Part shown: one piece after another, positions 22,123-32,954 of the stretch
Layout: every line of letters starts with the position of its first letter
Position numbering within the stretch: the first letter of the stretch is position 1
Origin: Odoribacter sp. OttesenSCG-928-L07
Lineage (GTDB): Bacteria; Bacteroidota; Bacteroidia; Bacteroidales; BM520
Reading direction: 5' to 3'
DNA: 64,000 bases
Assembly: GCA_030265965.1 (NCBI GenBank)
Contig: JAJDHA010000001.1
Coordinates: forward strand, 1 to 64,000
The notes under the pieces: generated by a model
Databases searched by the model: none
The model's input: the letters and a program-made list of their open reading frames with translations, nothing else
What the model was told of the DNA's origin: nothing
Made by a program: the position numbers and the translations under genes

Positions 22123-25100
22123 CTATTTATTTCTTTTAAAATTCTCCGCTTGTTCAAAAATTTCCACATAAACTTCATCGCGTTCCACAGGAGGATATCC
22201 GTATTCATCTAACAATAATATCAAACCAACTTTCAATGCAGATTTAATATCATCGCGTTTATTCCAATCAGGGTATTTCGCTTGTGAATCTACAAGGTTT
22301 TTTACTCCTTTAGCTAATTCAATCATTTTATCATCAGGGTAAGTAAAGTCATATTTAGTACACAATGATTTGAGTATGTCGTAAAAAGCCTTTTCTTCGA
22401 AATCAATACCCATTGCATCACCTGCGGAAAACTCTTTATGAACTTCCCAAATCAAATTGGTTAGCTGTTCCGCTATTTCTTCATAAACTTCACTTCTTAA
22501 AATATCGTTTGCATCTCGCTGATTGTATCGTTCCACCAAACTCTCCATTTTTTTACTGAAGTCGATCCCTTTCATGCGGTTTACCTTTTTCAGTTCTCCG
22601 ATTACTTTCGCCAACAGCTTTTGGAGCAGCTTGATTTTTGTATTGGGCAGCTTTATCTTATCTATCTTTGCCAAATAATCTTCATCGAAAATGTCTTGTT
22701 CAGTTTCATCTTCCGAACCCATTTTGAAGAGTTCTTCCACGCCGTCACTTATCAAAGCGTCTTTTATCATTTCCTGCACTTTGGCATTCATCTGTGCTGT
22801 ATCGGGAGCATCGCCTTTGGTCAATTTAAAAACGATAGAACGAACAGCCAAATAGAAGTGTGTATAATCTCGTTCTTCCTGCGTGAGTTGTTCGCTGCCG
22901 GTGCAAATATCATACGCTGCTTTCAGGCGTTTCACCAAATCCATAAAACGAGTTTCAAATTCTTTGGTGCACTGTATATATTCAGCGGCTTTGTTCAAAC
23001 AGTTCAATTGTTCCAATGTACCACCTGAGAAATAAGCTGAGCTATCGAATTTGTGAAACAGTTTTGTCAACAGATCCAAATGATCTTTTACCACCACAAG
23101 CGACTGGGTGATATCTTCAAAATTATCTTTGTCGCCTTTATTGTAGTGAGCCAAAGCAAGGTTCATTTGTTTCTTGATTCCGATATAATCGACCACCAAA
23201 CCTTTGTTTTTACCTTCAAACTTACGATTTACGCGCGAAATCGTTTGTATCAGATTGTGTTGTTGTATCGGCTTATCAATATAAATGGTATCGAGAAACG
23301 GCACGTCGAAACCTGTGAGCCACATATCGACCACAATGGCAATTTTGAAGTTTGACTTTTCATTCTTGAATTGTCGGTCGAGTTCTTTACGATACTCCTT
23401 TGTTCCCAATAAATCATATAACTTTTTGTCGTCGTCTTTATTGCGAGTCATCACAAGTTTGATACGTTCCATCGGTTTCAACTCACGTTTGTCTTTATCG
23501 GTAAGTTCAACACCCTCTTCCGCGAATCGGACTTCTCCCCATTCAGGACGAAGCGCCAGTACCTTTTTATAAAAATCGTAGGCGATAGTACGATTGCTGC
23601 ACACAAACATGGCTTTACCTTTTACCGAAGAACCTTCAGAAATACGATTTTCGTAGTGTGTAACAAAGTCTTCGGCTAATGCCTGCAAACGGTCAGGATC
23701 GCCAAGAATAACATGTAATCGGGCAGACTCTTGTTTACTTTTCTCTATTTGATATTCGTTTGCTCCTTCTTCGGCTACATCGTTATAATATTGTTCTATT
23801 TTTTGTAGTTCGCTGTTATTCAAAACTACTTTGGCAGCCCGTCCTTCATATACAATGCGAACGGTAATTTCATCGCGAACTGATTCGGTCATAGTATAGG
23901 CATCCATCACTTTACCAAACACATCGAGTGTGGCATCGATGGGAGTACCAGTGAATCCTACATACACTGCGTTTGGCAATGAATCGTGCAGGTATTTGGC
24001 AAATCCGAAAGTTTTGGATACACCTTTCTCGCTTATTTTTATTTTTTGGTCCAGATTGGTTTGACTGCGATGGGCTTCGTCCGAAATACAAATTACATTT
24101 TGACGGTCAGTTAATAATTCGGTATCCTCGGTGAACTTATGAATAGTGGTTAGAAAAACGCCGCCGCTTTCACGTCCTTGCAACAATTCACGCAAATCAT
24201 TTCGACTTTCAACACTAATGACATTATTGTCTCCAATGTATTGTTTGGCATTGGTAAATTGTCCGGCTAATTGGTCGTCCAAATCGGTACGATCGGTAAT
24301 CAATACAATGGTAGGGCTGCCAAAGTATTCGCTTTTCATCAATAGCCGGGTAAGGAAAAGCATTGTATAACTTTTCCCGCAACCTGTTGCCCCAAAATAA
24401 GTACCACCTTTTCCATTTCCAAACGGTTTTTGAGCCTGTTTTATGTTGTCATATAGTGCTCGAGCCGCGTAATATTGCGGATAGCGACAAACTATTTTCT
24501 CGTTCTTTTTCGATGAATCTGGAAAGTAAACGAAGTTTCGCAGTACATCCCGCAATCTATTTTTCTGGAACATACCTTGAACCAAGGTATACATAGAATC
24601 TATGCCATCCACATCTTTATTCATGCCGGCAATGCGTCGCCATGCATAGAAGAAATCGTAAGGAGCGAAAAACGAACCTACTTTGTTGTTTATACCATCG
24701 CTGATTACACAAAAAGCATTGTATTTGAACAGTTCGGGAATATCACGTTCGTAACGGACAGTCAACTGTGTATAAGCATCGTGAATGGTAGTATCTTCTC
24801 GAATGGCACTTTTGAATTCGAAAACCACCAAAGGCAAACCATTGATATATAGAATGCCATCAGGAATGCGTTTTTCCGAACCTTGAATTTCCAACTGAGT
24901 TATAAAGCGGTAGATATTTGCATCCGTTTTGTATTCAGCTTGTGGTTCAGCGACAACGGAAATTAGTTCTTCGGCAGTGTAAGTCTGATTCTCCAATCCC
25001 GAATAATCAATCAGCTGGATATAAACATCTTTATGCGTATGATCTTCACGTTTGAGAATAAATCCATCGGACAACATTTTCATAAAATGTTTATTGCTCT

Positions 25101-25329
25101 CGTACAGATCAGAAGCGGGAAGCGATTTCAGCTCCAACAGAATAGATTTGATTTCCGTATCGGTAATACCGTGATTAGCATAACGCTTTTTCAGGAAATT
25201 GCACAAATCGTCTTCTATCAGTACTTCATCAGGCTGGCGGGTAAGCGTATTGCCCAAGCAATGCGGATAACCTTCTTGTGAAAGAAGTTCGGCAAATGCT
25301 TGTTCGAGTTTGGCTTCGGTGAATTTCAT
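22123..25329 (-). CDS. hsdR: Type I restriction endonuclease subunit R
   Basis: RIPDGILYINGLPLVVFEFKSA nuclease motif, GATGCGKSYTM Walker A, ISDEAHRSQ, VGFTGTPID, TISRVNRKFEGKNKGLVVDYIG. Confidence 0.96.
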   Translation of the reverse strand: MKFTEAKLEQAFAELLSQEGYPHCLGNTLTRQPDEVLIEDDLCNFLKKRYANHGITDTEIKSILLELKSLPASDLYESNKHFMKMLSDGFILKREDHTHKDVYIQLIDYSGLENQTYTAEELISVVAEPQAEYKTDANIYRFITQLEIQGSEKRIPDGILYINGLPLVVFEFKSAIREDTTIHDAYTQLTVRYERDIPELFKYNAFCVISDGINNKVGSFFAPYDFFYAWRRIAGMNKDVDGIDSMYTLVQGMFQKNRLRDVLRNFVYFPDSSKKNEKIVCRYPQYYAARALYDNIKQAQKPFGNGKGGTYFGATGCGKSYTMLFLTRLLMKSEYFGSPTIVLITDRTDLDDQLAGQFTNAKQYIGDNNVISVESRNDLRELLQGRESGGVFLTTIHKFTEDTELLTDRQNVICISDEAHRSQTNLDQKIKISEKGVSKTFGFAKYLHDSLPNAVYVGFTGTPIDATLDVFGKVMDAYTMTESVRDEITVRIVYEGRAAKVVLNNSELQKIEQYYNDVAEEGANEYQIEKSKQESARLHVILGDPDRLQALAEDFVTHYENRISEGSSVKGKAMFVCSNRTIAYDFYKKVLALRPEWGEVRFAEEGVELTDKDKRELKPMERIKLVMTRNKDDDKKLYDLLGTKEYRKELDRQFKNEKSNFKIAIVVDMWLTGFDVPFLDTIYIDKPIQQHNLIQTISRVNRKFEGKNKGLVVDYIGIKKQMNLALAHYNKGDKDNFEDITQSLVVVKDHLDLLTKLFHKFDSSAYFSGGTLEQLNCLNKAAEYIQCTKEFETRFMDLVKRLKAAYDICTGSEQLTQEERDYTHFYLAVRSIVFKLTKGDAPDTAQMNAKVQEMIKDALISDGVEELFKMGSEDETEQDIFDEDYLAKIDKIKLPNTKIKLLQKLLAKVIGELKKVNRMKGIDFSKKMESLVERYNQRDANDILRSEVYEEIAEQLTNLIWEVHKEFSAGDAMGIDFEEKAFYDILKSLCTKYDFTYPDDKMIELAKGVKNLVDSQAKYPDWNKRDDIKSALKVGLILLLDEYGYPPVERDEVYVEIFEQAENFKRNK

Positions 25330-25335
25330 ACGGCT

Positions 25336-26355
25336 TTATTCTTTATCGTTATTTTCCGACTGTTCTTTTAACTCTTTGATTGCCCTATCGAAATCGCTTT
25401 CGTATTGCAACATTTCTTTTCGACGATATTCTTCAAATTCTTGTGTTGCTTTTTCTATGGCTTGTTTGTGTGAAATAGTCCCTGCATTATTGAGCAAAGG
25501 ACGGTTGCCTACCATCAGAATATTATCTAACTTTTCAATCCATTGCTGCATGGTCATAGCTTGTTGTTCTAAGGCTTGCAATTCAGCAAAATCAAGATAC
25601 TGAGATACTAACAAATTCAAGACTTGCAACTCTTTTTCCGAAAGATAGTTTTTTGCAATTTTTACATCATCGCGCGTTATGTAATCGCCTTTGAAATTGG
25701 TCATGCCCACCATGGGTTTTTCGGAATCTACCCGCTGATAAATAACCTCAGCCGCTGTATGTTGATGAGCGGCATAGTGCATTTTATTCTGAACGGTTGC
25801 AAAAAACGATCTAGTAACATCTGAGTTTGGATCATAATCAATCGCAGTAGCATAAATATCAGTTACTTGTTGATATAGATTGCGTTCGCTGGAACGAATA
25901 TCCCGAACACGTTGTAACAGTTCCCGAAAATAACGATTTCCATTCCCTTTCAATCGCTCATCGTCCATCGTAAATCCTTTTTGGATATATTCGTGCAGAC
26001 GTTGTGTTGCCCATTGCCGAAATCGTGTAGCCACTTGGGATTTCACACGATAACCGATGGCGATAATCATATCTAAATTATAGTTTGGAATATTCCGTTT
26101 TACAGAACGCTTACCTTCCGTTTGAACCTGTAAGAAATTCTTACAAGTTCGATCTTCCTGTAATTCAGCTTCTTGGTAGATATTTCGGATATGCTGCACA
26201 ATATTCTCGCGCGTTGTATCAAACAGCAAAGCAATCTGCTGTTGCGAAAGCCAAACATCTTGACCATCAAAACGGACATTGACATTTGTTATCCCATTGT
26301 CGTCTTGATAAAGAACGAACTGACTATTTGAGGGTTGAGGGTTATTGTTTGACAT
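25336..26355 (-). CDS. RhuM family protein
   Basis: VWLSQQQIALLFDTTRENIVQHIRNIY...YNLDMIIAIGYRVKSQVATRFRQWATQRLHEYIQKGF. Confidence 0.9.
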   Translation of the reverse strand: MSNNNPQPSNSQFVLYQDDNGITNVNVRFDGQDVWLSQQQIALLFDTTRENIVQHIRNIYQEAELQEDRTCKNFLQVQTEGKRSVKRNIPNYNLDMIIAIGYRVKSQVATRFRQWATQRLHEYIQKGFTMDDERLKGNGNRYFRELLQRVRDIRSSERNLYQQVTDIYATAIDYDPNSDVTRSFFATVQNKMHYAAHQHTAAEVIYQRVDSEKPMVGMTNFKGDYITRDDVKIAKNYLSEKELQVLNLLVSQYLDFAELQALEQQAMTMQQWIEKLDNILMVGNRPLLNNAGTISHKQAIEKATQEFEEYRRKEMLQYESDFDRAIKELKEQSENNDKE

Positions 26356-26622: not shown

Positions 26623-28575
26623 TTATTGAAAATCATCTGGTAAATACTGTTTGTATTTCTCTTCAAGTAGAGATAGTGCATCTTCATTTGTTTGAAGATT
26701 TAAATTTAACTTATCTTTTATATACTTGTATTTTGATCTTGCTGTTTGAATTATGTCGCTCCAACGAAGGATAAACACATTTACATGTTCTGATTCTATA
26801 ATGTGACCATAACGTCTGTGTTGCTGCTCTACGCTTGTTTTTAATTCATCTTTAATGTCTCTTGTTAATAAAATAAAAGTCCATTTAGTTTTTTCTTTGG
26901 GAAATCGAGCATCATTACTGACTTTAGCAGCATAAGATTCTATTTGTGTTTTTTCAGGAAACCCTGCATCTTTAATTGGTCGTTTTAATTCAATTACCAA
27001 ATTTTCGTAATAATCAGCTTTTCCTAAATTGTATTGTTTCCATAGACATACATCAGGAATCGTTTCTAATTCTGAATTATCTTCAGAATTTACCACTTCT
27101 TCGAAATCATCTCGTCCTAAATCTTTTAGATATTGTTTTAGAACATTTTTAAGAGTTAAATCATCCGCACCATAAGTATAATCATCACCAAAAATCCAAG
27201 TTTCATTCACTACAATTTTGTGTAAATGCTTTCTCTCTTTTACTTTTTTTGAATGTTCAGGATCATATATAAGCAATTCTAATCCGCTTAGAAAATCAAG
27301 CCTATCTGTCACTAAACGCATAGTGTCAATCATATTCTCCAAAGAAGTTTTCTCTAACAATTCAGCCAACTCTTCTTTCTTATCGTCAGGCAATCCTATA
27401 ACTTCAGTGAGAATCTTTTGCAAACTAGCAGTGTTTGTCTCTAATGCCTCTTTAACTAAAGACAATGTTAATTTCTTGCTTATATTATCTTGTTCACTAA
27501 AAGAAGGTAGATATTCATTTATTTGAAGAGCAACTATATCAAAAACTTGGCGTTTTGCTATTTCAACATTTCCTTTTGCTTCTTCGTGATAGGGATATAA
27601 ATTTGACATTTTAAGATCTTCTATAAATTCTTTAGAATAATAGTGCAATCTTTTTCTGACATATTCTCGTGCTATTTTTTTACTTTGTTCAACGACTTTT
27701 ACTAACTCTGGATTAGCCTCAGCTAAATTTAATTCATTTTGTCTATGTAAAGATTCAATATATATTGATTGAATAAAAATTGAAATCGGCAAACTTGAGC
27801 GTATCCCAAGCGTGGCTTCAAGAAATGGAATTCCTTTTTCATTACATAAATATGTTTTCCTTTTATTCTCAAATTTCCATTCTATTATTTTAATTTCAAA
27901 TTTATACGTCAGGTTATTAATATCTGTTTTTATTATTTCCGTATATTGATTTTTTATAAGGTTGTCAAAATCTAATTTTTTATTGTTAATATATATTTGA
28001 AAATATGGATAACTTAAGTAATACAAAGCAAATCTTTCTTCTAGTTCTCTGAAATTATCTTTTAAAAAAACTTCATTTGCAATTTTATCATTGATATTGT
28101 TGATTGTGACCTTAAATCCCTTTTTCATGCCATTAACAGTCTCAATGTCGCTTAATTTAGGATTTCGAAGACTATTTTTATCAATAGCAACAGTAAAATG
28201 ATTAGAAAAATCATCTATGATCTGATAACTATCGAAATGCACCAGATCTCCAAGAGCTAAAGCTTTATACCTGCCTTTTCCTTCCTTGCCATGATAAACC
28301 CTTCCTGCAGGACTAACATTATTTTGTTTCTTATCTGAGCCTCCAAGTTTTTGAAAGACATCTTCTGCTAATTGATAAGATAATCCAATACCATCATCTT
28401 CTATAGATATGTACTCGTATTTGCCAAGTACATTTTTCTCAAAATTTATTCTTATTTCATTTGCATCAGCATCAAGAGAATTCCAAATTAACTCTGAGAT
28501 AGCATTGATTCCATTAGATCTTGTTAAAGACTCAATGTGATCCTGCTGGACAATTATTTCTAATTCCTTTGACAT
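26623..28575 (-). CDS. GHKL (Hsp90-like) ATPase protein with C-terminal PDDEXK-like nuclease motif
   Basis: GHKL motifs ELIWNSLDADA, IEDDGIGL, GKEGKGRYKALALGD; C-terminal PDVCLW...NLVIELKRP. Confidence 0.75.
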   Translation of the reverse strand: MSKELEIIVQQDHIESLTRSNGINAISELIWNSLDADANEIRINFEKNVLGKYEYISIEDDGIGLSYQLAEDVFQKLGGSDKKQNNVSPAGRVYHGKEGKGRYKALALGDLVHFDSYQIIDDFSNHFTVAIDKNSLRNPKLSDIETVNGMKKGFKVTINNINDKIANEVFLKDNFRELEERFALYYLSYPYFQIYINNKKLDFDNLIKNQYTEIIKTDINNLTYKFEIKIIEWKFENKRKTYLCNEKGIPFLEATLGIRSSLPISIFIQSIYIESLHRQNELNLAEANPELVKVVEQSKKIAREYVRKRLHYYSKEFIEDLKMSNLYPYHEEAKGNVEIAKRQVFDIVALQINEYLPSFSEQDNISKKLTLSLVKEALETNTASLQKILTEVIGLPDDKKEELAELLEKTSLENMIDTMRLVTDRLDFLSGLELLIYDPEHSKKVKERKHLHKIVVNETWIFGDDYTYGADDLTLKNVLKQYLKDLGRDDFEEVVNSEDNSELETIPDVCLWKQYNLGKADYYENLVIELKRPIKDAGFPEKTQIESYAAKVSNDARFPKEKTKWTFILLTRDIKDELKTSVEQQHRRYGHIIESEHVNVFILRWSDIIQTARSKYKYIKDKLNLNLQTNEDALSLLEEKYKQYLPDDFQ

Positions 28576-28582
28576 GTTTTTT

Positions 28583-29776
28583 TTAATTTTTTATTGTTGC
28601 CATCTTCGAAAGAAGTAGCGATTGTAATTCTTTTAACTTTTTATCTTGTTCAGCAAACAGCTCTATATTTTTATCAAGAATAGATATAGTGTCTTCAAAT
28701 AGTTGAATAGTTTTATTGTTCGGAATGATAATTTTACTCTGATATAACGCCTCTTTTGTTATTGAGCCAAATATTGTTCCTTCGTCATTAGACACATCAA
28801 ATTCATTTCTAATTGCTAACATCAAATGAAAAAGAAATGAATTGTGTTTTGTTTTGCTATTCAAAGAGGCAATACCTCGACCAATTGCACAATCATTCTT
28901 TGTTATATTCAAGTCTCCTACTGGAGCTCTCACACTCATTAATATATCTCCCTTTTTAGCTCTTTTTTTAGGTTCAGTAGTGTAAGTTGTTATATCAGGA
29001 AATCTTATTCCAAAGTCTGTTCGCCCCTGATAAAATATCATCCCATTTCCTTCGGAATTATACGACTCACCTTCAGGTGACTGTCCCATAATGATATTTG
29101 CAATATCCGACAAAGCTCCCACTCTCCACCCCCTCGGAATCTCCCCCAACTCACTATCCACCATTTCGCCACCCGAACTTTTATACGACTTCCCGTCTTC
29201 ATTTGGAAACTCAAAATCCACAAACCACTGCTTGTAAATAGCCTGTGCAGTTTCTTCGAGTTTTTGTATCAGTTGGTTGTTGAGGTCTATACGACGTTGC
29301 ACGGCATTGTATTCGGCTACTATCTCGCGTTGTTTTTCGGGAGAGGGAATGGGGAGTTCAGTATTGCACAATTCTTCCCAATCAAACATTTCCCTAACGC
29401 TTCCATGACTTCTGAAACGAGCATATCTGTCAAACTCGGGACGCCGAAACCACATCATTAGATACTCAGGAAGAAGGCTTTCTGTGTCAGTAATTTCAAA
29501 AACAGTATATGCTTGAGAAACTAATGCCGTACCTCCATTCGCATACATTGCAATACCAATTTTGTCTCCTCTTCGAGAAGTGTCTGGGATATATGTGAAT
29601 TGAGTGTTTCTTACTGTTTTGTATTTTGTAAAGTCAGTTCCAACAGTATTTGCTACAGATTTAATAAATTCTTTTGACACAGAAACACCAAGTAGATTGT
29701 CTTCCCGTCCTTCAAGATTCCGCACATCCACTTCCCGAATATAATCACCCAATCGTTTATAATTGCTCATTCTCAT
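28583..29776 (-). CDS. hsdS: Type I restriction specificity subunit S
   Basis: Two TRD-like halves with conserved-region motifs (LPIPSPEKQREIVAEYNAVQRRIDLNNQLIQKLEETAQAIYKQWFVDFEFP; GEIPRGWRVGALSDIANIIMGQSP). Confidence 0.95.
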   Translation of the reverse strand: MRMSNYKRLGDYIREVDVRNLEGREDNLLGVSVSKEFIKSVANTVGTDFTKYKTVRNTQFTYIPDTSRRGDKIGIAMYANGGTALVSQAYTVFEITDTESLLPEYLMMWFRRPEFDRYARFRSHGSVREMFDWEELCNTELPIPSPEKQREIVAEYNAVQRRIDLNNQLIQKLEETAQAIYKQWFVDFEFPNEDGKSYKSSGGEMVDSELGEIPRGWRVGALSDIANIIMGQSPEGESYNSEGNGMIFYQGRTDFGIRFPDITTYTTEPKKRAKKGDILMSVRAPVGDLNITKNDCAIGRGIASLNSKTKHNSFLFHLMLAIRNEFDVSNDEGTIFGSITKEALYQSKIIIPNNKTIQLFEDTISILDKNIELFAEQDKKLKELQSLLLSKMATIKN

Positions 29777-30323
29777 CTCTCAATTTTATGAACTCATTTT
29801 CTATTTCTTCTATCGTTGGTAAGCTATCTTTCAATTCTTTGGGCAAATGCTCGGTAATTTGAAATTCGCTTACTCCCATAGGTTTGTTTATATCGCGTAA
29901 TGAAAACTCGACTTCAATGCTATTCTTTTCGCGGCACAGTAAAATGCCAATCGTTTGTTGTCCGACAAAAGCAAATCCTTTACCTAATTCCAATGGAATT
30001 TTTGTAACGGGTTGTTGCACAATTTGTCCAACAGGTTGTTGGATTAATTTATCGTGATAGAAAACATAGAATTGCTTGCAATAAAATAAGTTACTCCTTG
30101 ATAAACCTTTCATGTCAGGAAATTCTGATTGCAGATCTTTAGCCGCCTGCTCTATCAGTTTATTACCCCACACGTTCTCTTTTTCGGAAATCATTTTGCC
30201 TAATTCCCAATAAAATTCAATCAATGCAGAATTGACAGCAATAGCTGCCTTAATTTGCGTTGAACGAATTTTGGTTTTTAGCTCTAAAATCCATTTTTTA
30301 TAACTGTTATCGGATATATTCAT
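29757..30323 (-). CDS. DUF1016/YhcG-like protein, internally collapsed (lacks PDDEXK core)
   Basis: N-terminal INSALIEFYWELGKMISE-type DUF1016_N, then QQPVTKIPLELGKGFAFVGQQTIGILLCREKN...LRDINKPMGVSEFQITEHLPKELKDSLPTIEEIE, with the middle regions absent. Confidence 0.75.
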   Translation of the reverse strand: MNISDNSYKKWILELKTKIRSTQIKAAIAVNSALIEFYWELGKMISEKENVWGNKLIEQAAKDLQSEFPDMKGLSRSNLFYCKQFYVFYHDKLIQQPVGQIVQQPVTKIPLELGKGFAFVGQQTIGILLCREKNSIEVEFSLRDINKPMGVSEFQITEHLPKELKDSLPTIEEIENEFIKLRDENEQL

Positions 30324-30329
30324 ACCGCC

Positions 30330-31328
30330 TCAATTGTTTTTATTAATCAGATTGACTACTAATTTTACCATCACATCTTTCTCTTCCGAGCGGCTTTCGG
30401 CAATCATCAGGGTTAAAGCTACTAATGTATTGTTTTCAATCAACCTTGTTCCATCGGGCTTGTAAAGGATTCCGTTTTTCTCTAAAAACCAAAGGAACAG
30501 AAAAGCTGCAATCCGCTTATTCCCATCGCTGAAAGAATGATTTTTGGTTACTAAGTACAAGAGCATTGCCGCTTTTTCTTCAATACTTGGATAAAGTTCT
30601 TTACCATCGAATGTTTGATAAATGGTATTGATTGAGCTATGAAACGATCCGTCTTTTTCATTACCAAACAAGGAGCTTCCGCCAAATTTTTTGTGTAATA
30701 TAGAAATCGCCTCTTTTGCATTTTCGTAAGTGGCTCGAAAATCCTCTTTTGTAGTGGTTTGTTCGATACTCAACTGTTTATAGTCATATTTATCCAATGT
30801 ATCTAAAGCATACGTGTAATCACTTATCACTTGCAAGAGACCTGTAGCTTCGTCTGCCGATAGTTCTTTGCTTTGCAAAACATTCGATAGTAGTTTGACG
30901 GTTAGTTTCAGGTCGTTGTATTGTTGCAATTGTATCTTGTTATTAACGGCATAGCCTTTTACAAGATACTCTTTTAAAATACGGTTTGCCCAAATGCGGA
31001 ATTGAATTCCTCTGCTTGACTTTACTCGATAACCAACAGACAAAACCATGTCCAGACTATAAAATTCTATATTTCTTTCAACTTCTCGATCCCCTTCTTT
31101 TTGAACTGTCGCAAAATTTGCGACAGTTGGAATTTCAGCCAACTCTTCCTTTAAAGCATTATTAACATGCTTCCCTATTGTTTTAACATCCCTATCAAAC
31201 AATTCAGCCATCTGCTGACGATTGAGCCATACGGTTTCTTCTTTCAGCCTCACTTCCAACTTTGTAGTCCCATCGGCAGCCTGATAAATAACTATCTGAT
31301 TATCATCAACCATCTTTTCATCTTTCAT
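30330..31328 (-). CDS. RhuM/Fic(Doc) fusion protein
   Basis: N-terminal VWLNRQQMAELFDRDVKTIGKHVNN; C-terminal Fic motif HSFSDGNKRIAAFLFLWFL. Confidence 0.9.
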   Translation of the reverse strand: MKDEKMVDDNQIVIYQAADGTTKLEVRLKEETVWLNRQQMAELFDRDVKTIGKHVNNALKEELAEIPTVANFATVQKEGDREVERNIEFYSLDMVLSVGYRVKSSRGIQFRIWANRILKEYLVKGYAVNNKIQLQQYNDLKLTVKLLSNVLQSKELSADEATGLLQVISDYTYALDTLDKYDYKQLSIEQTTTKEDFRATYENAKEAISILHKKFGGSSLFGNEKDGSFHSSINTIYQTFDGKELYPSIEEKAAMLLYLVTKNHSFSDGNKRIAAFLFLWFLEKNGILYKPDGTRLIENNTLVALTLMIAESRSEEKDVMVKLVVNLINKNN

Positions 31329-31343: not shown

Positions 31344-32954
31344 TTATTCAATACCATATCCCAATTCTTTAAACACTTTAATCAATTCCAGTTTCGATTG
31401 TTCTTCGGCTTGCAACAATTCTTTAAACTCGGCTTGTAATGTTTTCATCTTTTCGTCGAAGTCGATATTCTCATCACGATTCTTAAAAGCAATGTATTTG
31501 CTCGGAACTAAGGAAAAATCTTTTGCTTCTACTTCTTCATGCGAAGCTGAATAGCAATATTCAGGGATATTGAAAACTTCACGTTGAGACGCACGGCCGT
31601 GTTGAGACGCACGGCCGTGCGTCTCTATCGTAGCGGTCTGCCAATCGTGATAGGTTGCTGCAACCCGTCTGATATCTTCTATTGAAAATTGAGTAAACTT
31701 CTTCTCAAAGGGTTCGCCCATTTGGCGCAGGTCCATAAACAAGATTTCGCCTTTGCGGTGGCGATAGTTGCGGATTTCATCGCCTACCTGTACGGTTCGT
31801 TGGGTCTTATTTCGGTTCAATATCCAAAGTGTAACGCTAATATCGGTTGTATAAAACATATTTCGAGGCAAAACCAAAATCGCTTCCACCAAATCATTTT
31901 CAATCAGTTTTCGGCGAATTTTATATTCTTCACCTCCACCGCTTAATGCACCATTGGCAAGAATAAAACCTGCTACGCCGTTTTCAGAAAGTTTGCTTGC
32001 CATATTGAGAATCCAGCCGTAATTGGCATTGCTTTTGGGCGGCACATCGTAGCCACGCCAACGCGGATCGTCAATCAGTTCATCTTCGGCTCGCCAGTCT
32101 TTTTGGTTGAATGGCGGATTTGCCATAATGTAATCGGCTTTCAGGTCTTTGTGTTGGTCGTCTGAAAACGTATTGGCGGCTTTCGCTCCCAAATTGGCGG
32201 AAATACCCCGAATGGCAAGATTCATTTTTGCCAGTTTATAGGTGGTATTGGTGTATTCCTGTCCGTAAATGGAAACTTCGCGTTTGTTACCGTGATGACT
32301 TTCGATAAATTTAATGGATTGTACAAACATGCCACCTGAACCGCAAGCAGGATCGTAAATGATACCCTTGTAAGGTTCAATCATTTCGGCAATCAGGTTT
32401 ACAATACTTTTGGGCGTATAAAACTCTCCTTTCCCTTTTCCTTCCGCTAAAGCGAATTTTGAAAGGAAGTATTCATATACACGTCCAACAATATCCTGCT
32501 CTTTATCTTTTAGGGTGTTTATCTCACTGATTTCATCAATCAACGAAGCCAGTTTGGATGATTCCAAACCTAAGCGAGAGAAATAATTATCGGGTAATGC
32601 CCCTTTCAGGCTTTTGTTGTTTTTCTCTATGGTATGGAGAGCAGTGTCGATAATCAGAGCCAAATCGTCTTGTTTGGCTTTTTCTTTGATGTAATTCCAA
32701 CGTGATATTTCTTCGAGAAAAAACACATTGCTCATGTTGTAGAATTCGGGCATCTCTACGTACTTCTCTTTTCCGTCGGCAATGAGCTTAGATCTGTGTT
32801 CCTCGAACTTATCACTGACAAATTTCAGGAATATCAACCCCAACACCACATGTTTGTATTCCGAAGGCTCAACACTTCCACGCAATTTGTTTGCCGACTC
32901 CCACAGACTTACCTCTATTGGTTTTTCTTGTTTTTCATTTGCTTTTTTAGCCAT
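31344..32954 (-). CDS. hsdM: Type I restriction methyltransferase subunit M
   Basis: GEFYTPKSIVNLI, YDPACGSGGMFVQS, ADYIMANPPFNQKDW. Confidence 0.96.
   Translation of the reverse strand: MAKKANEKQEKPIEVSLWESANKLRGSVEPSEYKHVVLGLIFLKFVSDKFEEHRSKLIADGKEKYVEMPEFYNMSNVFFLEEISRWNYIKEKAKQDDLALIIDTALHTIEKNNKSLKGALPDNYFSRLGLESSKLASLIDEISEINTLKDKEQDIVGRVYEYFLSKFALAEGKGKGEFYTPKSIVNLIAEMIEPYKGIIYDPACGSGGMFVQSIKFIESHHGNKREVSIYGQEYTNTTYKLAKMNLAIRGISANLGAKAANTFSDDQHKDLKADYIMANPPFNQKDWRAEDELIDDPRWRGYDVPPKSNANYGWILNMASKLSENGVAGFILANGALSGGGEEYKIRRKLIENDLVEAILVLPRNMFYTTDISVTLWILNRNKTQRTVQVGDEIRNYRHRKGEILFMDLRQMGEPFEKKFTQFSIEDIRRVAATYHDWQTATIETHGRASQHGRASQREVFNIPEYCYSASHEEVEAKDFSLVPSKYIAFKNRDENIDFDEKMKTLQAEFKELLQAEEQSKLELIKVFKELGYGIE
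31584..31625. repeat. 18-bp tandem duplication ending in a 22-bp perfect palindrome, in frame within hsdM
   Basis: TTGAGACGCACGGCCGTG at 31584-31601 and 31602-31619; GAGACGCACGGCCGTGCGTCTC at 31604-31625. Confidence 0.9.

Follow-up and report, generated by a model that had tools for sequence, protein, structure and literature searches.

A paraMORC3-like GHKL ATPase-nuclease gene nested in a type I restriction-modification operon is likely to be portable anti-phage cargo

Within a 64,000-nucleotide stretch of Odoribacter sp. OttesenSCG-928-L07 DNA (hereafter the window), a gene lodged in a type I restriction-modification (RM) operon encodes a conserved fusion of a GHKL ATPase to a PD-(D/E)XK-like C-terminus, and the gene is a modular, mobile unit that occurs independently of RM genes. 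We consider it likely that the product is a self-sufficient, ATP-gated anti-phage nuclease of the paraMORC3 kind, carried as portable cargo inserted into an RM operon that it does not need. An earlier note on this DNA had suggested an ATP-gated effector; we keep this as the best reading, predicted from the GHKL-nuclease fusion.

The open reading frame specifies 650 amino acids from an ATG start, its ends are exact, and the plus strand over the same interval is riddled with stop codons. On the minus strand the operon runs hsdM, RhuM-Fic, DUF1016 remnant, hsdS, GHKL-nuclease gene, RhuM and hsdR (Table 1). The location between hsdS and hsdR had thus been given correctly in the earlier note, with one RhuM gene interposed before hsdR. 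The GHKL-nuclease gene starts 7 bp past the end of hsdS and is separated from the downstream RhuM-hsdR pair by 267 bp; a promoter and terminator check of this gap revealed no terminator-like site and no more promoter matches than expected by chance. Given the 7-bp spacing, functional coupling to RM in the host strain is possible. The gene would probably be co-expressed with the host RM operon. By Pfam, the window protein itself contains no HsdM, HsdS or HsdR domain.

Table 1 Features of the GHKL-nuclease gene, its operon in the window and its P4-satellite-type homologues
Feature	Position	Strand	Basis
paraMORC3-like GHKL ATPase + PD-(D/E)XK nuclease gene	26623..28575	minus	ORF, Pfam, conservation, fold
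GHKL ATPase domain, ~residues 1-161 (E28, N32, D60, G62, G64, G96, G99, G101, R102)	28093..28575	minus	
S5/transducer-like domain, ~residues 162-270	27766..28092	minus	AF2 + Foldseek
Helical middle domain, ~residues 271-439, joins ATPase to nuclease	27259..27765	minus	AF2
PD-(D/E)XK nuclease-like domain, residues 440-650 (E447, D508, E529-x-K531, Q544xxxY548)	26626..27258	minus	
hsdM, type I N6-adenine methyltransferase	31344..32954	minus	N6_Mtase 5e-100, HsdM_N 1.2e-22
RhuM-Fic fusion, PADLOC candidate PDC-S23	30330..31328	minus	Pfam, PADLOC
DUF1016/YhcG gene, internal deletion, PDC-S02	29757..30323	minus	188 aa vs ~350
hsdS, type I specificity subunit	28583..29776	minus	Methylase_S 3.8e-22
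RhuM-family gene, PDC-S05	25336..26355	minus	Virulence_RhuM 5e-109; PDC-S05 8e-144
hsdR, type I restriction subunit	22123..25329	minus	T1RH-like_C, SWI2_SNF2, HSDR_N; REase_I PDLC03040 1271 bits
P4-satellite-type homologues (E. coli, Salmonella)	L036:12001-13986, L037:8001-9986, L033:11992-13977		

We began with the N-terminal part of the protein. Every GHKL motif quoted in the earlier note is present: E28 and N32 in ELIWNSLDADA, D60-D-G62-I-G64, and H95-G96-K-E-G99-K-G101-R102. HATPase_c_3 (E=2e-13) was the sole Pfam name given to the window protein. An AlphaFold2 model of the full protein, built with 77 sequences, had a mean pLDDT of 80 and placed the strands and helices of the S5-like part at residues 163-278. 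Foldseek searches of the PDB with the N-terminal part returned TRAP1/Hsp90, MORC2/3/4 and MutL with E values of 1e-10 to 1e-13 (best E=8e-13), in alignments spanning 315-430 columns of these two-domain structures and with TM-scores that were modest overall (TMt up to 0.48). Similarly, hmmsearch with profile A2 against the PDB matched MutL at 1.5e-8 and MORC2 at 1.4e-6. As modelled, the N-terminal part is a GHKL domain plus S5 of the Hsp90/MORC/MutL kind. Orthology to MutL or MORC was rejected, the match being confined to the GHKL core: the NCBIfam MutL hit covers residues 24-68 only. The helical middle domain that follows carries residues conserved family-wide (Y327-P328, E338 and R425).

The C-terminus contains the stretch PDVCLW...ENLVIELKRP, that is I-P-D508...LVIE529-L-K531-R-P533, within a nuclease signature that reads D508...E529-x-K531...Q544xxxY548; we take D...ExK...QxxxY to be the motif set of RecB-like nucleases. 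To examine conservation we collected relatives from 80 genome loci and 27 viral contigs, and aligned 86 full-length proteins (effective number 69). E28, W31, N32, D35, D60, G62, G101, R102, E529, K531, P533, W565 and W605 are invariant in this set, and E447 (99%), D508 (99%), Q544 (97%) and Y548 (99%) are nearly so. All positions of G96xxGxG101 are likewise fully or almost fully conserved. Because the 80 loci were fetched by GHKL-motif patterns, the conservation of E28, N32 and G96-G101 is partly by construction; with the GHKL part as bait, only that of D508, E529, K531, Q544 and Y548 is fully search-independent. The PDDEXK-like C-terminus claimed in the earlier note is supported, and the acidic and lysine residues on which that claim was to be judged are conserved (D508, E529 and K531, 99-100%). 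The Pfam scan gave no C-terminal match for the window protein itself; among its relatives, the C-termini of 61 of 77 matched HSDR_N_2 (best 1.4e-6), and others matched NucS_C, PDDEXK_9, VRR_NUC, PDDEXK_4 and YhcG_C. Cas4 matched weakly over the C-terminal part of one phage-borne relative.

Structural comparison of the C-terminus, a check proposed in the earlier note, gave a divided answer. Modelled alone, the C-terminal 211 residues (pLDDT 75, pTM 0.71) adopted the strand-strand-helix-strand order of PD-(D/E)XK enzymes. However, a Foldseek search with this model yielded no match below 1e-3, and the best (8e-3) was a non-nuclease. The top 50 included MspJI (four chains), McrC, FokI, E. coli SduA, SwaI, HamA and Cap4, weak matches that are only suggestive of a nuclease fold, and a PDB sequence search with the C-terminal profile returned no match. 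The model thus supports a PD-(D/E)XK topology at the C-terminus with a weak structural match, and the profile evidence for such a domain is better than that from structural matches.

This arrangement of domains has been described before. The pointer in the earlier note to Iyer, Abhiman and Aravind proved exact: their paraMORC3 class of 2008 combines GHKL, S5 and a C-terminal RE fold with E-D-ExK, the last resembling RecB-family nucleases, and is common in Proteobacteria and Bacteroidetes, mobile, and found in RM operons or standalone (PMC2292703). Compared by this published description, the window protein showed no difference. It has the GHKL motifs, the S5 and the C-terminal E447-D508-E529xK531 (fold matches there being suggestive only), and hence the paraMORC3 architecture. 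Experimental evidence comes from VcSduA, a GHKL-Shedu (type I-D) protein with DUF4263 encoded on V. cholerae VSP-II (PMC12137116). In 2025 it was reported that VcSduA-mediated defence is lost with E27A or K557A (PMC12137116), so the glutamate and lysine mutations proposed in the earlier note have in effect been made on a relative. Like the window protein, VcSduA has a GHKL N-terminus, a clamp-like middle and a PD-(D/E)XK C-terminus with equivalent catalytic Glu and Lys, and is the product of a single gene on a mobile island. The published E27-K557 spacing is 530 residues, compared to 503 in the window protein and 495-513 in its 86 relatives; judged from that spacing alone, VcSduA probably represents a sister subfamily. 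The architecture, nuclease prediction, RM association and frequent standalone occurrence were already on record in 2008 for paraMORC3, and mutational support for the GHKL-nuclease mechanism has been on record since 2025 for VcSduA. The family ties that prediction to that experiment, and is large and under-annotated. Our survey of the literature found no tested member of the exact window clade, and the window protein belongs to a clade that is apparently untried and is unnamed in current libraries.

On the preferred reading, the GHKL and S5 module would bind ATP and dimerise as an ATP-gated clamp around DNA, as its fold and invariant motifs suggest. The helical middle domain may relay clamp closure to the PD-(D/E)XK domain, which would then cut DNA using D508, E529 and K531. 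By analogy with VcSduA, the target is most likely phage DNA, cut directly. The same domain anatomy would be compatible with ATP-gated suicidal nucleases, and most loci have no linked cognate modification enzyme, as might be expected if the triggered nuclease degraded DNA indiscriminately and killed the infected cell. We nevertheless hold abortive infection of this kind to be unlikely: VcSduA protects at every MOI tested without growth arrest and is non-abortive in appearance (PMC12137116), and the gene has no conserved antitoxin-like partner.

We then asked how often the gene keeps company with RM genes, since the earlier note had given weight to its operon position and pairing and had called for a family-wide neighbourhood analysis. 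If the protein were an accessory of type I RM, it could work as a MutL/MORC-like clamp or looping protein, either in cooperation with HsdR or by limiting or extending HsdR cutting. The tight spacing after hsdS in the window is in keeping with such a role, and DNA looping together with RM enzymes is what Iyer et al. put forward (PMC2292703). Among the 80 genome loci, 8 have hsdM or hsdR within 3 kb, 7 of them co-directional; the other 72 have neither, and linkage to hsd genes is thus not obligate. Furthermore, the order varies. The gene lies after hsdR in L038, L055, L066 and L101, before hsdM in L053 and L065, before hsdR in L059, and on the opposite strand in L076. On a maximum-likelihood tree the 9 RM-linked copies, that of the window included, are scattered and need 8 changes. 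At 41 of the 80 loci there is no co-directional neighbour within 100 bp, and the neighbours at other loci include Septu, Gabija/PARIS-type ATPases, MADS, Hachiman and GmrSD genes, integrases and conjugation genes.

Comparison of related mobile elements revealed what can stand beside the gene in place of RM. Two Maribacter conjugative elements (L050 and L053) share a mobilisation/coupling-protein backbone and the GHKL-nuclease gene, and are ~87% identical across 5.9 kb. After the gene, L053 has hsdM-hsdS-Abi_C-hsdR, and L050 has a Gabija gajA-gajB pair in convergent orientation, beyond which its backbone continues. A second pair comes from Rhodobacterales. In the T4SS region of L032 the gene directly follows virB11 and precedes a pPIWI-associated nuclease gene, and in L101 an hsdM-hsdS-hsdR block, its middle gene called hsdS from place and size, lies between the T4SS genes and the GHKL-nuclease gene. 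The strongest evidence for the gene acting as a module in its own right comes from these natural cassette exchanges. Collectively, the census, the tree and the locus comparisons show independent, swappable placement, and operon position is therefore ruled out as the mark of a new system, contrary to the emphasis of the earlier note. With its own conserved nuclease motif, the protein is quite improbable as an RM accessory. More generally, these findings caution against taking a gene inside an RM operon for a subunit, such genes often being swappable cargo. MzaB and other MORC/paraMORC ATPases likewise present a GHKL ATPase in an RM-like defence operon; MzaB, however, matches the window protein over ~45 GHKL residues only (E=0.046, 12 bits against a cut-off of 850) and lacks a match to its C-terminal nuclease.

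The gene also travels alone. A homologue is present in 11 of 5426 complete E. coli genomes and, in the two loci that we read, is the only cargo gene that a P4-like satellite at ssrA carries between psu and int; a Salmonella record carries a gene 98% identical to it. Hotspots of anti-phage systems have been reported in P4-like satellites (PMC9122126), and the P2/P4 hotspot paper makes no mention of the GHKL-nuclease family. The E. coli P4-satellite copy (WP_021536577.1) offers a convenient case, in an easy laboratory host, for testing directly whether immunity by DNA cutting is gated by ATP-driven GHKL clamps. Other lone-gene settings include a Mu-like Pasteurella phage, a plasmid T4SS region and the 27 viral contigs. 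Plasmids and Mu-like Pasteurella phages carry full-length relatives with 30-33% identity. In a sample of 396 Bacteroidota genomes, full-length homologues occurred in ~6 of the 395 besides the host, and none of 59 genomes related to the host, four of the same genus included, had one; given this patchy occurrence, the gene was presumably acquired. A MutL-like repair or recombination protein recruited to mobile elements for a purpose other than defence is highly improbable given this distribution, the defence-island and satellite-cargo locations and an NCBIfam MutL score of 29 bits against a cut-off of 180, even though the GHKL and S5 fold is closest to MutL/Hsp90/MORC and Iyer et al. allowed a non-RM role for standalone paraMORC3 (PMC2292703). 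Two loci were considered as split genes and dropped: in L071 the junction contains masked Ns, and L079 shows a simple frameshift.

The family was also compared with Shedu. Classical SduA, like the window gene as we read it, is a single-protein defence; unlike the window protein, it has no GHKL domain. PF14082 (SduA_C/DUF4263) gave no match to the window protein at E<=1 and none across the host genome, and filing the protein as Shedu was rejected. However, when the family C-terminus was compared by hhalign with a nuclease profile built from the PF14082 matches on classical SduA, the two aligned with P=7e-7 and a probability of 85%. They share the ExK motif and, ahead of the catalytic core, an xTWI[FL]G stretch. 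In addition, three GHKL proteins of ~590 aa (L150, L151 and L156) have C-termini that pass PF14082 and align with the window family over their full length (P=3e-38), and by these sequence comparisons they bridge classical Shedu and the window family. By the profile match and these three proteins, the nuclease domain is distantly related to that of Shedu.

Existing annotation conveys little of this. RefSeq labels members of the family "ATP-binding protein", PHROGs lists them as function unknown, and PADLOC calls them "REase_II" via the GHKL domain only and has no model covering the full length of the window protein. The PHROGs entry phrog_6203 represents the same full-length family, matching the window protein at E=8.5e-54, the Pasteurella phage protein at 1.7e-153 and the E. 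coli P4 protein at 3.8e-74. We give even chances to a stronger proposal, in which the phrog_6203-like clade of ~650-aa proteins would form a separate branch of GHKL-gated nucleases, sister to VcSduA/Shedu I-D. On this proposal the clade would respond to a trigger of its own, have a nuclease domain that falls outside the current Shedu models, occur widely on satellites, phages and conjugative elements, and be missed by the defence library searched.

Several further observations concern neighbouring groups and genes. Four GHKL-nuclease proteins (L125, L157, L158 and L159) form a third group, with a Glu-Lys spacing of 521 in L125 and L159. Genes of this group often adjoin a DNA cytosine methyltransferase gene (L157 and L158), and some of the nuclease motifs are altered, L157 having EFM at the expected ExK. 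In the window operon, the DUF1016/YhcG remnant joins DUF1016_N to positions 109-157 of 157 of YhcG_C only, the last third, and its product probably lacks the PD-(D/E)XK catalytic core. Two RhuM-type genes lie in this one type I RM operon, one of them fused to Fic, and both are PADLOC defence candidates; in L059, too, a RhuM gene is placed between hsdR and hsdM. An Abi_C-domain accessory gene (L053:14861-15889) sits between hsdS and hsdR of another type I RM operon, and cargo seems to enter the hsdS-hsdR slot repeatedly.
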